A stretch of DNA of 15,950 nucleotides, from NCBI GenBank assembly GCA_002780675.1, contig PEUR01000222.1, positions 1 through 15,950 of the forward strand. The letters run 5' to 3'. Below are positions 2,496 through 6,843 of the stretch, one piece after another. The stretch comes from Gallionellales bacterium CG03_land_8_20_14_0_80_55_15 (GTDB lineage: Bacteria > Pseudomonadota > Gammaproteobacteria > Burkholderiales > Gallionellaceae). Numbering within the stretch: the stretch's first letter is position 1; every line of letters starts with the position of its first letter. Below the pieces are notes generated by a model, which did no database searches, was not told the DNA's origin, and saw nothing but the letters and a program-made list of their open reading frames with translations. The position numbers and the translations under genes are program-made.

Positions 2496-3335
2496 TCAAC
2501 GCTTGCTGTAGCGCAACACCAGCCAAATCCCTCCGAGTATCAGCAATGAAGCGATCAACAGATCACGCGTGAGTGCCTCGTCCAACAGCAGGATGCCGCC
2601 GATGGCGGCGATCACCGGCGCTGCGAGTTGTACTGTCGAGGCCGTCATGACGCGCATGTGTTGCAGTACGCGATACCACAGCACATAACCCAACGCAGAA
2701 GTTAGTGCGCCGGATAACACGGCGTATAGTGCACCGCGCGCGTCCCCATGCATCCAGGGTAAAGACAGCAGCACAAGCCCCAGCGACAGCGGTGCGGCGC
2801 GAAGAAAATTGCCAGCAGTGGCGGCAGCAGGGTGAGGTAATCCGCGTCCCCATAACGAATAAATGCCCCATGCAACACCACTCGCCAGCATCAGGATCGA
2901 ATCCAGCAGCGACGGCGCTGCCACGCTGGGTGACACCAGAACCAGCAGTCCCGCGATTGCGCCGACAAACCCCGCGCTTTGAATTTTGCTCATGCGTTCG
3001 CCCGCGATGAATCCGGCGATGAGCATGGTTGCTTGCACTGCGCCGAACAGCATCAGCGCACCGACCCCGGCATTGATCGTGCGGTAGGAAAAGGAAAAAG
3101 TGGCCGCATAGAGGAATAAGGCCAGCGCGCTGCGCCAGTTGCCGTGTCGCAAGGGAGAGAGGTTTTGCCAGTGCATCAGCAGCCACAATATCGCAGCACC
3201 GGACAACAGGCGCAGCGCGGTGAAGCTCGCCGCATCAATGGCCGTTTCCTTCAGCGCCATGCGGCAAAGCACCGAGTTCGCCGCAAAGGCTGTCATGGTC
3301 AGCGCGGTGAGCGCGACGAGGCGAATGCGCGTCAC
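2496..3335 (-). CDS. EamA/DMT-family transporter in the ergothioneine operon
   Basis: A 279-residue integral membrane protein with about ten hydrophobic segments arranged as two EamA repeats: the first begins MTAFAANSVLCRMALKE, the second around LMLASGVAWGIYSLWGRG, ending in a basic tail (LVLRYSKR). This is the 10-TMS drug/metabolite transporter superfamily, inner-membrane exporters or exchangers of small metabolites. The start is GTG at 3335, overlapping the egtD stop by four bases (GTGA), so it is co-translated with egtD as the last gene of the operon. The substrate cannot be read from sequence; its place suggests hercynine, ergothioneine, a precursor amino acid or a by-product, but DMT genes are often neighbours without a pathway link. 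Confidence 0.88.
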   Translation of the reverse strand: MTRIRLVALTALTMTAFAANSVLCRMALKETAIDAASFTALRLLSGAAILWLLMHWQNLSPLRHGNWRSALALFLYAATFSFSYRTINAGVGALMLFGAVQATMLIAGFIAGERMSKIQSAGFVGAIAGLLVLVSPSVAAPSLLDSILMLASGVAWGIYSLWGRGLPHPAAATAGNFLRAAPLSLGLVLLSLPWMHGDARGALYAVLSGALTSALGYVLWYRVLQHMRVMTASTVQLAAPVIAAIGGILLLDEALTRDLLIASLLILGGIWLVLRYSKR

Positions 3336-4336
3336 GGGGTGTCGAAGCGCAACAGATGACGCGGTTCGGCAGGGGAGCGACTCAAATAATGCACATTGAA
3401 TAAACCCTCCGCATCGCTCCAGGTGGTTTTTAGATGCCAGCCCGCCGCAAGTGCCAGTTGCTCGAATTCATGCGCGGTATATTTGTAGGAGTTCTCGCTG
3501 TGGATGGTCTCGCCTGCTTCAAACACAAACGATGCTTCGCCCAATCGGATGGTTTGGTAGTAGCGGCTGACCAGGTGCATCTCGATGCGCCCCAGCGTTG
3601 GGTTGTAAAAGGCGTAATGGGAAAAACTGTCGGTATCGAGTTGCGCGCCCAGTTCGCGTTGCATACGCACCAGCAGATTGAGGTTGAAGGCGGCGGTGTG
3701 GCCGGCGGCATCGTTGTAGGCGGCATTCAGGCGTTCCGGGAGCTTTTTACTATCCACGCCGATCAATAATCCACCGTCCGCACCGACCCACTGCGACGCT
3801 TGCTTTAGCAACTGCACCGCTTCATCCGGCGCGTAATTGCCTATCGTCGAGCCGGGAAAAAAGATAACCTGGCGCTGGGCGGGATTTCCCCTCAGTTCGA
3901 GGGCGGACAATTGAGTATAGTCCGCGCACAGCGGGCGCATGACCATCTGCGGAAACAGCGTTTGCAAACGTGCCGTGCTGTGCAGCAAATGCGGTTCGCA
4001 GATGTCTATCGGTACATATATCGCATCGTCGGACAGATGCCGCAGCAGCAACGGTGTTTTGCTTGCGCTACCGCTGCCCAGCTCGATCAACACGCAGGAT
4101 GCGCCAATCTGTCCGGCCATCTGCGCGCCGTAGCGTTCGAGAATGGCCGTCTCGGTGCGCGTCGGGTAATACTCCGGCGTGGCGCAGATCTGATCGAACA
4201 ACTGCGAGCCGCGCGCATCGTAAAAGAATTTTGGCGGGATGCTGCGCGGGCTTTGCTTCAGACCCGCGCTGGCCGCAGTCAGAAAATCGTTTTCATCAAA
4301 GGTAACTTTGGGGGTGGGCGATTCATTGCGCATCAT
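3332..4336 (-). CDS. egtD: L-histidine N-alpha-methyltransferase EgtD
   Basis: A 334-residue SAM-dependent enzyme that trimethylates the alpha-amino group of histidine to hercynine, the first step of ergothioneine biosynthesis. Family signatures: PPKFFYDARGSQLFDQICATPEYYPTRTE (35-62), the SAM loop LIELGSGSASKT (83-94), IDICE (110-114), FFPGSTIGNYAP (159-170) with the Asn that holds histidine, and IHSENSYKYT (278-287) with the Glu near the substrate imidazole/amine. Length is close to the usual 320-330. The start is ATG at 4336, a four-base ATGA overlap with the egtB stop; a second ATG follows immediately. It overlaps the EamA gene downstream in the same way. Annotation is firm. Confidence 0.96.
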   Translation of the reverse strand: MMRNESPTPKVTFDENDFLTAASAGLKQSPRSIPPKFFYDARGSQLFDQICATPEYYPTRTETAILERYGAQMAGQIGASCVLIELGSGSASKTPLLLRHLSDDAIYVPIDICEPHLLHSTARLQTLFPQMVMRPLCADYTQLSALELRGNPAQRQVIFFPGSTIGNYAPDEAVQLLKQASQWVGADGGLLIGVDSKKLPERLNAAYNDAAGHTAAFNLNLLVRMQRELGAQLDTDSFSHYAFYNPTLGRIEMHLVSRYYQTIRLGEASFVFEAGETIHSENSYKYTAHEFEQLALAAGWHLKTTWSDAEGLFNVHYLSRSPAEPRHLLRFDTP

Positions 4337-5625
4337 GCGTCCTCCGCCAGGCGTAGGCCGGAAAACATCCAGCGATCTGCAGCCCGGAAAAAATTACGGT
4401 AAGTGACTCGGAGGTGGTCTTGCGGCGAGACGCAGCATCCGCCGCGCAGCACCCATTGATCGCACATGAACTTGCCGTTGTATTCACCCAGCGTGCCGGG
4501 CAGCGGCTTGAAGCCGGGGTAGGGAAGATAAGCGCTTTGGGTCCACTGCCACAGCTCGCCGTACATTTGCTGAATTGAATTTGTGTGGCCGTGCGTTTTC
4601 TCCCTCTCCCCGTGGGAGAGAGTTGGGGTGAGGGTTGCGGGTTGCGGCACATACAAGCCGCTATCAAGAAAGCTGCCAGTGAGGCTTTGCGTGCTGGCCG
4701 CGTGTTCCCACTCCGCCTCGGTCGGCAGCCGCTTGCCAGCCCAGCGTGCGCAGGCATCGGCCTCGTAATAACTCAAATGCGACACCGGCTCGTCCTCGCG
4801 CAACGGATGCGCGCCCGTCAGGTCGAAGTGCATCCAGTCCTTGCCCTGCCTGAACCAGTACAGGGGCGCTTGCCAGCCTTGTGTATTGACCGTGTGCCAG
4901 CCGTCCGACAGCCACAGGTCAACACGGAGATACCCGTCGTCCTCGATGAAGGCGAGGTATTCCGCATTGCTGGTCAGGCGTGTGGCAAGGCGGAAATCGT
5001 CCAGCCATACTTTGTGGCACGGGCGCTCGTTGTCGTAGGCGAACGCTACGCCGTCGTGGCCGATCTCGACCAGACCGCCCTTGAAAGTCTGCCAGTCCAG
5101 CGGCGGCTGTGAAGACGGAGCGGGTAGGTTGGGGGGGTGATACGCGGGCAGCAGCGGATTGACGGAAAAGTTGTAGAGCGTGTCCATCAACAGCAATTCC
5201 TGATGCTGGATTTCGTGCTCGATGCCGAGTTGCACGCGCTGCAAAATATCGTCCAGATGTTGTTGCGGCGGATGCGCCAGCAGTTCCAGCAGCGCATCAT
5301 TGACATGCTGGCGATAGCGATAAACTTCCGCCACCGTCGGGCGCGACAGCAAGCCGCGCTGTCGGCGCGGAAAGAAAGTACCCGCCGTCTCGTAATAGGA
5401 ATTGAAAAGATGCGCGTAAGCCTGGGCAAACACGGGATAGCCGGGCGCAAATGGGATCAGGATGAAAGTCTCGAAAAACCAGGTGGTATGCGCCAGATGC
5501 CACTTAGGCGGACTCGCGTTTTCCATCGCCTGAATGCCATAGTCTTCGATTTCCAGCGGCGCGCACAACATCCCGGAGCGGGCGCGCACCGCCTGAAAAC
5601 GCTGCGCCAATGCGGACGTGCCCAC
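4333..5625 (-). CDS. egtB: Ergothioneine sulfoxide synthase EgtB
   Basis: A 430-residue non-heme iron enzyme that joins hercynine to a thiol (gamma-Glu-Cys or cysteine) with O2. The N-terminal DinB-like domain carries WHLAHTTWFFE (His46 as likely ligand) and GIEHEIQHQE with His137 and His141 (HxxxH), the three-His iron site. The C-terminal formylglycine-generating-enzyme/sulfatase-modifying domain shows KRLPTEAEWEHAA (298-310), GELWQWT (356-362) and WVLRGGCCVSPQDHLRVTYRNFF. An odd segment, TLTPTLSHGEREK (331-343), is encoded by a dispersed palindromic repeat and is probably a tolerated loop insertion. The start is GTG at 5625, three bases after the preceding stop, and gives the family N-terminus RFQAVRARSGMLCAPL. 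No egtA/egtC is present in the operon, which would fit a cysteine-using enzyme (inference). Confidence 0.95.
   Translation of the reverse strand: MGTSALAQRFQAVRARSGMLCAPLEIEDYGIQAMENASPPKWHLAHTTWFFETFILIPFAPGYPVFAQAYAHLFNSYYETAGTFFPRRQRGLLSRPTVAEVYRYRQHVNDALLELLAHPPQQHLDDILQRVQLGIEHEIQHQELLLMDTLYNFSVNPLLPAYHPPNLPAPSSQPPLDWQTFKGGLVEIGHDGVAFAYDNERPCHKVWLDDFRLATRLTSNAEYLAFIEDDGYLRVDLWLSDGWHTVNTQGWQAPLYWFRQGKDWMHFDLTGAHPLREDEPVSHLSYYEADACARWAGKRLPTEAEWEHAASTQSLTGSFLDSGLYVPQPATLTPTLSHGEREKTHGHTNSIQQMYGELWQWTQSAYLPYPGFKPLPGTLGEYNGKFMCDQWVLRGGCCVSPQDHLRVTYRNFFRAADRWMFSGLRLAEDA
4600..4636 (-). repeat. Palindromic 'CTCTCCC-GGGAGAG' dispersed repeat inside egtB
   Basis: On the minus strand it reads ACCCTCACCCCAAC then CTCTCCC-ACG-GGGAGAG then GGAG. 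This is the layout of the very common proteobacterial intergenic repeat whose translation is LTPTLS.GERE. The 7-base stem is 4604-4610/4614-4620. It is in frame and has no stop. A second copy in the opposite orientation is at about 6199-6233. Confidence 0.8.
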
Positions 5626-6120: not shown

Positions 6121-6198
6121 AATGAGTTTTTCGTTGTCCGTTTAACGGGCATGGAAAAGTAACCACCCCTGATGATGAAACTCTCCATGCCCGCTCCT

Positions 6199-6233
6199 TC
6201 ACCCCCGTCCCCCCTCTCCCAAAGGGAGAGGGG
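6199..6233 (+). repeat. Palindromic dispersed repeat, second copy
   Basis: TCACCCCCGTCC is followed by a perfect 10-base stem CCCCTCTCCC (6211-6220), loop AAA, GGGAGAGGGG (6224-6233). This is the same consensus as the copy inside egtB but in the opposite orientation. It is 28 bases beyond the stop of the convergent-side CMD gene (minus strand), so it might also help end that transcript. The remainder of the 5920-6261 gap shows no gene. Confidence 0.75.
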
Positions 6234-6261
6234 TACAGTTCGTCGCTGCGCGAGTTTCACG

Positions 6262-6843
6262 TTAACGCTTGCAGCACGCATAGTCATCCGGTAACGCCCA
6301 CTTTTCGTCGGCGAATGCCGCATCCAGCGGGGTCTCGGTCAGGTGGTTGGTGTAGTTGCTGATGGTTTTCATGGCAACGCCTAAAATCACTTCGAGCGCG
6401 TGTTGTTGGGTGTAACCGGCGGCAAAGAATTCCTTCAGCTCGTTGCTATCGGCAACCCAGCCGCGCTCCTGCACCACGGCGCGGACGAAGTTTGCCAGCG
6501 CGTTCAGTTTCGCATCGGGTAATACTTGACCACCGCGCAGGGCGGCGATGATCGCGGCATCGGCTTTCACCATGTTGCGCGCGATGAAGGAATGCGCCGC
6601 CACACAATAGGCGCAGCGGTTCTCGAAACTTATCGCCAGCAGTAGGGTTTGTTGTTCAACCGGGTTGAACGCGCTTTTTTCCAGCAATGCGCCCAGTTGT
6701 TTGTAGGCCTCCAGGGTGACGGGCGACGAGGCTAGATGCGCGTATAGATTAGGAATGAAGCCCATTTCCTTGTTTGCTACTTCGAGGGTGGGCAGCGAGC
6801 CGACAGGGGCGGAAGCCAGCGTGTGTAATTTGAAGGTGGTCAT
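6262..6843 (-). CDS. Carboxymuconolactone decarboxylase/AhpD-like peroxidase-related protein
   Basis: A 193-residue protein of the CMD/AhpD superfamily. The core is ISFENRCAYCVAAHSFIARN (71-90) with Cys77-x-x-Cys80-xxx-His84, the thiol pair and histidine used in AhpD for alkylhydroperoxide reduction. Upstream, LEVANKEMGFIPNLYAHLASSP is typical of 'uncharacterised peroxidase-related' CMD proteins. No signal peptide is visible, so it should be cytosolic. It ends with an unusual Cys-Cys pair (YACCKR). The start chosen is ATG 6843, preceded by GGGAGA at good spacing; a longer in-frame version from 6870 has no support. It is 201 bases downstream of the HxlR regulator on the same strand, with a palindrome between them. 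The physiological substrate is unknown. Confidence 0.88.
   Translation of the reverse strand: MTTFKLHTLASAPVGSLPTLEVANKEMGFIPNLYAHLASSPVTLEAYKQLGALLEKSAFNPVEQQTLLLAISFENRCAYCVAAHSFIARNMVKADAAIIAALRGGQVLPDAKLNALANFVRAVVQERGWVADSNELKEFFAAGYTQQHALEVILGVAMKTISNYTNHLTETPLDAAFADEKWALPDDYACCKR

Follow-up and report, generated by a model that had tools for sequence, protein, structure and literature searches.

A TM/PIT-type palindromic repeat translated in frame within EgtB of a Gallionellaceae bacterium

A dispersed palindrome is translated within EgtB

In the window (the whole 15,950-nucleotide stretch of contig PEUR01000222.1 analysed here, from a Gallionellaceae genome), a dispersed palindromic repeat and its 3′ arm encode 20 in-frame residues of EgtB (Table 1). 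To judge from its letters, the repeat matches the G/C-rich intrastrand triplex motif TM/TMECO, or PIT, and a TM/PIT copy with part of its 3′ arm has probably entered EgtB at a loop that tolerates insertions, and is translated there as a disordered peptide. Our best reading of this and of the similar cases described below is that coding insertions are passively tolerated where a loop permits them, as with the RPEs of Rickettsia and intragenic REPs. TM/PIT-type repeats would enter genes often in this bacterial family, and selection would purge out-of-frame copies and hits to the protein core, so that the survivors would gather in few tolerant loops; the inserted peptide would have no role of its own.

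In-frame palindromes are already known, namely RPEs and intragenic GTAG/CGTC REPs (PMC3733652) and RU elements (PMC2759123); the present case adds TM/PIT to the coding palindromes of Rickettsia and of some REP families. The open-licence literature that we searched held no description of TM/PIT in coding sequence, of loops with several types of insert, or of the bracketing of DUF559 genes by palindromes, and no work combining 'repetitive extragenic palindromic' with Gallionella.

Table 1 Features of the window discussed in the text
Feature	Coordinates	Strand	Description and basis
egtB	4333–5625	−	430 aa, GTG start as listed; ORF list, TIGR03440, structural match to 6qkj
egtD (histidine N-alpha-methyltransferase)	3332–4336	−	TIGR03438, 376.3 bits (cut-off 290.9)
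Whole insert, residues 331–350 TLTPTLSHGEREKTHGHTNS	4576–4635	−	Palindrome plus degraded 3′ arm; from comparison of empty sites, carriers and arm consensus
TM/PIT-type palindrome	4602–4634	+	Hairpin CCCTCTCCC-CGT-GGGAGAG.G plus putative third strand GGGGTGAGGG; one stem mismatch
123-bp element, subfamily related to but distinct from the EgtB-copy type	6143–6265	+	Core hairpin 6214–6230; ends TAACG/CGTTA; outside the EgtB insert

On the minus strand, where egtB runs from 5625 to 4333, egtD follows it directly, forming an ergothioneine gene pair. The egtB product scored 551.5 bits against TIGR03440 (EgtB; curated cut-off 360), and the best matches of its model were to solved EgtB structures of Chloracidobacterium (6qkj, TM-score 0.91 by query length), in which the inserted segment is absent. 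By score and predicted fold the protein is a type II-like EgtB sulfoxide synthase carrying an insert. The DNA at 4602–4634 reads CCCTCTCCC-CGT-GGGAGAGAGTTGGGGTGAGGG and is translated in frame on the minus strand, residues 331–343 (TLTPTLSHGEREK) corresponding to 4597–4635, and the whole insert lies between EAEWEHAA (residues 303–310) and GELWQWT (356–362). Coordinates and translation thus bear out the earlier note on this DNA, which had placed an in-frame palindromic repeat between these two motifs and held that the frame and the downstream motifs were kept; both are intact, and egtB reads as an undamaged gene. The note's palindromic segment also stands, but the full insert reaches beyond the extent given there, since translation runs on into part of the element's 3′ arm. 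The RNA fold of the insert was only weakly unusual (z = −1.56, with 13 of 200 shuffles equally good), and therefore we make no claim at the RNA level.

That the palindrome is an assembly error in a metagenome-derived genome has a vanishingly small probability. The genome is fragmented, at 222 contigs, but the same segment occurs in a 98% identical protein from an independent collection (P0001, in a cluster of 47 sequences), and such inserts are also found in other genomes.

The repeat corresponds to TM/PIT and has distinct subfamilies

The available text of Holder et al. (2015) reports that in E. coli MG1655 the intrastrand triplex motif lies between genes without exception and has no association with transposons, phages or plasmids, and takes the name PIT from earlier work cited there (PMC4666352). 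Its hairpin, CCCTCTCCC-short loop-GGGAGAGGG, is present at 4602–4622 with one mismatch (GGGAGAGAG), and the third purine strand, which follows a short spacer, is present as TT-GGGGTGAGGG up to 4634. The two repeats are thus alike in the hairpin CCCTCTCCC/GGGAGAGGG with GGGGTGAGGG as third strand and in being dispersed in many bacteria, whereas the copy in EgtB is translated in frame; any triplex here is putative. A 2010 Enterobacter genome paper, in the part available, likewise mentions one hundred palindromes of the form CCCTCTCCCXX(X)GGGAGAGGG (PMC2869309).

The core CTCTCCC-N2-8-GGGAGAG occurred twice in the window and never in 200 shuffles, and 11 times in the window's genome (1.61 Mb, 81% complete), where the reversed control pattern gave 0 matches. 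Across the genus, 66 of 76 genomes contained it, at 0 to 79 copies each (control pattern, 0 to 2). By their flanks, the 11 copies in this 81% complete genome split into seven of a 123-bp subfamily and four with the EgtB-type arm (CTCACCCCAACC-like). The 123-bp element has nested hairpins between its TAACG/CGTTA ends; its seven copies, all located via the core, are the one in the window and L035, L039–L042 and L045. One frame per strand is open throughout the window copy.

This split bears on the second repeat copy, about 1.6 kb from the insert, from which current spread had been proposed. The copy at 6214 does share the core hairpin and part of the 3′ arm with the EgtB copy, but aligning the flanks of the 11 core copies led us to reject it as the same repeat; it belongs to the longer 123-bp subfamily, and the argument for current spread from a neighbouring copy falls with that.

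In related genomes, EgtB-type copies often continue as GGGAGAGGGAGC(A/G)AACG, a string present in 62 of 158 genomes of the family, and among 30 loci that we read, many, not all, run on as AATCGCTACGCGA, the others having a different arm. EREQTNRYA in EgtB carriers is this arm in translation (GAG AGG GAG CAA ACG AAT CGC TAC GCG), and EREQTNRYAN, with which the insert ends at its 3′ side in many carriers, translates the repeat's own arm as it occurs at other loci. The repeat core itself is free of stop codons in four of six frames.

Set against known systems, the insert behaves like the Rickettsia RPEs, palindromic repeats that, as far as PMC3733652 conveys, are tolerated in frame across many unrelated proteins; the EgtB-type repeat, too, is inserted in frame into conserved proteins. 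The likeness is one of insertion behaviour, the RPE being another repeat from another branch of the phylum tree. Intragenic GTAG/CGTC REPs are similar in lying in frame within genes; the same source, in its available text, places them in repair and housekeeping genes and describes two recB genes hit at about the same site (PMC3733652). Unlike those REPs with their RAYT, the TM/PIT-type repeat showed no such end tag and no adjoining Y1 transposase: when core and arms were aligned and inspected by eye, neither GTAG nor CGTC was noticed at an end (the 123-bp subfamily ends in CGTTA), and the repeat was found within 300 bp of none of 20 Y1 transposase loci. The RU elements of enterobacteria (Delihas 2007, PMC2759123) are, from the available text, also small MITE-like repeats read into proteins, but are 103–168 bp long and of other sequence.

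The insert is scattered among EgtB homologues

We assembled 146 EgtB rows (the window, the best 120 of 7998 scored homologues, and 25 loci), some of them identical or near-identical. A contig search, in which the matches listed were mostly distant EgtB, supplied loci for the deep alignment. An insert of this kind occupied the same place in 18 of the 146 rows, whose homologues are the best 120 of 7998, and the carriers' identity to the window protein went down to 68%. The insertion had been taken for a recent one; such sharing at one place, down to 68% identity, speaks against this. Within the genus, a strong EgtB match (E ≤ 1e−100) was found in 11 of 76 genomes, and the ten other than the window's all lack the segment, as the idea of an insertion relative to close relatives had predicted. 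Rows without the insert, outgroups among them, retain the uninserted spacing, give or take a few residues. In P0030 and P0054 the inserted repeat is itself interrupted by nested sequence that reads like another repeat (e.g. NPLPQAGEEA).

On a tree of 82 rows, built with the insert columns excluded and keeping all 18 carriers (64 non-carriers left out), presence of the insert required 15 changes, compared with a mean of 16.4 after shuffling, and 103 of 500 shuffles were as low. At least five changes are forced by starred branches. The tree is weakly resolved along its backbone, with 14 of its 76 inner branches starred. Grouping of the carriers in a single clade was rejected (lnL difference 441, p-AU = 8.7e−5).

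Instead of repeated insertion at one place, the scatter could reflect one old EgtB insertion that has since disappeared many times over or moved between species through short-tract recombination, a possibility to which we give somewhat less than an even chance. In every classified carrier the element and its frame are the same and the ends similar, which would also fit one origin followed by exchange or loss; the carriers have the arm, the in-frame length and the following I/L-Q junction in common. Moreover, the window's insert looks most like those of L139 (52 of 66 bases) and L140 (48 of 66), both of another genus; with the window, these make up the 3 of 18 carriers with DNA. However, non-carriers and outgroups have the same empty spacing and motif, so each loss would have needed to be precise, and in the GatB and Opp/Dpp proteins described below, different types of insert sit at one place in a loop and therefore arrived there by separate insertions. 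In the three carriers with DNA the stems are intact, with loops of three or six bases, and the flanks were mixed on exchange versus insertion. Compared with the nearest non-carrier, L148, and the carrier L139, respectively, the window's upstream flank scored 0.86 and 0.77 at 60–300 bp and 0.73 and 0.78 over the last 60 bp; downstream, the values were 0.90 and 0.83 over the first 60 bp, and 0.79 and 0.81 beyond.

The bin that contains L139 (G153) has two EgtB genes, on C104 (L139) and C207 (L159), one with the insert and one without; in the tree, the second is the same as the EgtB of a Sideroxydans MAG contig (L058).

The insert is predicted to form a loop

The AlphaFold model that we used, with 75 diverse sequences as input, had a mean pLDDT of 93.6, and residues 331–340 and 341–350 averaged 61 and 56, respectively. 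These were the only 10-residue blocks below 70, and both were modelled without helix or strand, so that the predicted structure agrees with the earlier suggestion of a loop: the insert appears loop-like, lacks regular structure and coincides with the lowest-confidence part of the model. A first model, from 22 close homologues, had a mean pLDDT of 43.5 and was set aside.

A selected function of the insert in EgtB, such as regulation or partner binding, seems to us highly improbable. The insert does persist over 68–82% protein identity, but its palindrome or peptide is decayed or interrupted in several carriers (e.g. P0014, P0017 and P0092) and holds nested sequence in P0030 and P0054, the same peptide occurs in unrelated proteins, and the model places no structure at the insert.

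Repeats lie in frame in other conserved proteins

The repeat had been said to sit normally between genes. This does not hold for the EgtB-type copies of the window's genome. Of these four, three lie in frame within an ORF: one in egtB, one in that of an Opp/Dpp-type ABC ATPase (L043) and one in that of an N6/N4 DNA methylase (L036), here in the C-terminal part, after the domain. The fourth precedes an ORF that reads like threonine synthase.

Two further genomes, G149 and G153, had 25 and seven core copies, respectively. Their in-frame copies, each either inside a family match or flanked by two portions of one, were found in MutS, AroA, UvrD, AmgK, RlmN-like and MiaA proteins, and further ones in an Eco57I-type methylase, MmeI-type methylases, GatB, HsdM and EgtB. 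Family models extend across the copies, or match on either side of them, in MutS, GatB, AroA, UvrD, MiaA, AmgK, HsdM and RlmN-like proteins. Together with EgtB and the ATPase from the window's own genome, and with nothing else counted, these families account for 16 of 36 copies across the three genomes; the remaining 20 fell outside known families, close to the ends of genes or in intergenic DNA, or were unscanned. Three more genomes yielded in-frame copies in UvrD (G020), HpnE (G013) and a DsbD_2 protein (G062).

In two of these enzymes, single loops have been refilled by different inserts, which amounts to a natural assay of insertion tolerance. We sorted the inserts by heuristic expressions into classes under our own labels (TM, RGG, ASLLA, TSHST, NPDL and ELVEA). 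Among the 120 best GatB homologues, 49 had an insert at one loop: 29 of TM type, six, two and two of three other recurrent types, and ten unclassified. A quick GatB tree gave 25 changes of presence, or 31 with types. For the Opp/Dpp ATPase, 87 homologues were parsed (17 others stayed unparsed), and 47 of the 87 had a loop of more than 15 residues, with at least five types represented: 12 were of TM type, seven, five, three and two of four other types, and 18 unclassified. Two non-TM types were common to both proteins. Two of the classes look like what we take to be translations of other bacterial repeats. Some loop inserts among the GatB and Opp/Dpp homologues (P0121–P0360) are nested, as in P0335 and P0172.

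DUF559 genes are often bracketed by matched palindromes

The starting case was an ORF (L184) with a DUF559 domain (376–482) in frame between two TM copies, within an MmeI-type methylase. The contig in question (G149:C39; L183 and L184) carries an MmeI-type methylase ORF with in-frame palindromes, the DUF559 domain lying between two of them.

Among 30 DUF559 loci sampled from the genus (the best match per genome, so that the tested loci are the strongest matches), the core occurred within 150 bp in 14 when exact and in 27 with up to two mismatches. In a more general test, for pyrimidine–purine hairpins within 160 bp, 18 of the 30 loci had them on both sides (left 18, right 24). For the class, sampled through 185 genomes, 21 of 30 loci did so (left 24, right 25). 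The corresponding figure was 0 of 20 for Y1-transposase loci (left 2, right 1) and 0 of 797 for random windows (0 of 530, with left 0 and right 2, and 0 of 267, with left 4 and right 3). Left and right copies of one DUF559 locus were more alike than copies across loci, to a degree reached by 1 and 0 of 5000 permutations. A simple motif placed a purine third strand on the inner side, left as well as right, in 9 of 18 and 11 of 21 loci.

Since DUF559 genes are often bracketed by matched hairpins, DUF559 is a candidate mobiliser of the TM/PIT repeats. The evidence is one of association, and offers a directly testable candidate route for TM/PIT spread. We would go further with almost even confidence: TM/PIT may be the terminal inverted repeats of mobile elements with a DUF559 gene, and solo copies, among them coding ones like the copy in EgtB, their non-autonomous offspring, which would constitute a second partnership of the REP–RAYT kind. 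The resemblance to REP–RAYT pairs lies in a nuclease-type gene flanked by its palindromes; the difference lies in the protein, since DUF559 belongs to the Vsr-like PD-(D/E)XK domains and Y1 transposases do not, and its action on the palindrome is a candidate one, by analogy. The available text of one study describes a Caulobacter DUF559 protein as Vsr-like PD-(D/E)XK (PMC12907096), and that of another places a DUF559 gene among EDxHD homing endonucleases (PMC9403480); these repeats are the subject of neither text. DUF559 together with 'palindromic' retrieved, in the open-licence literature, only works unrelated by title and abstract.

Over the 47 genomes at least 90% complete, core copies correlated with DUF559 matches at rho = 0.74, as against 0.62 for Y1_Tnp, although copy numbers of different mobile genes may climb jointly. 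Flanking, likewise, does not prove movement, as DUF559 genes may simply settle in palindromes. The window's genome has no DUF559 match and is one of nine genomes with at least ten cores and none; conversely, DUF559 occurs in two of ten core-free genomes. Spread of the repeat by Y1 (RAYT-type) transposases instead of DUF559, as for classical REPs, is unlikely in our view. The correlation with Y1_Tnp would fit it, but no core lay within 300 bp in any of 20 Y1 loci even with two mismatches (a loose match within 600 bp occurred in three of 20), and one genome (G090) combines 39 copies with 0 Y1 matches. RAYT was accordingly rejected as the mobiliser, the copy numbers correlating while physical association was absent (0 of 20 loci).

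In E. coli K-12 (L301), with up to three mismatches allowed, two TM copies lie beside ycjD (DUF559, 1351407–1351760): the one at 1351217 is, by sequence and place, entry 9 in the table of Holder et al., and the other, at 1351396, is weaker. Neither at this gene nor in another E. coli record (L302) did the general hairpin test give a match. A DUF559 gene on a Sphingomonas plasmid (L303, 821–1418) has hairpin pairs on both sides of the domain.

The palindromes flanking DUF559 genes are matched and inverted and comprise several subtypes (L221–L250, L271–L300, L301 and L303), and further DUF559 matches lie inside long open frames of about 840–1560 residues.
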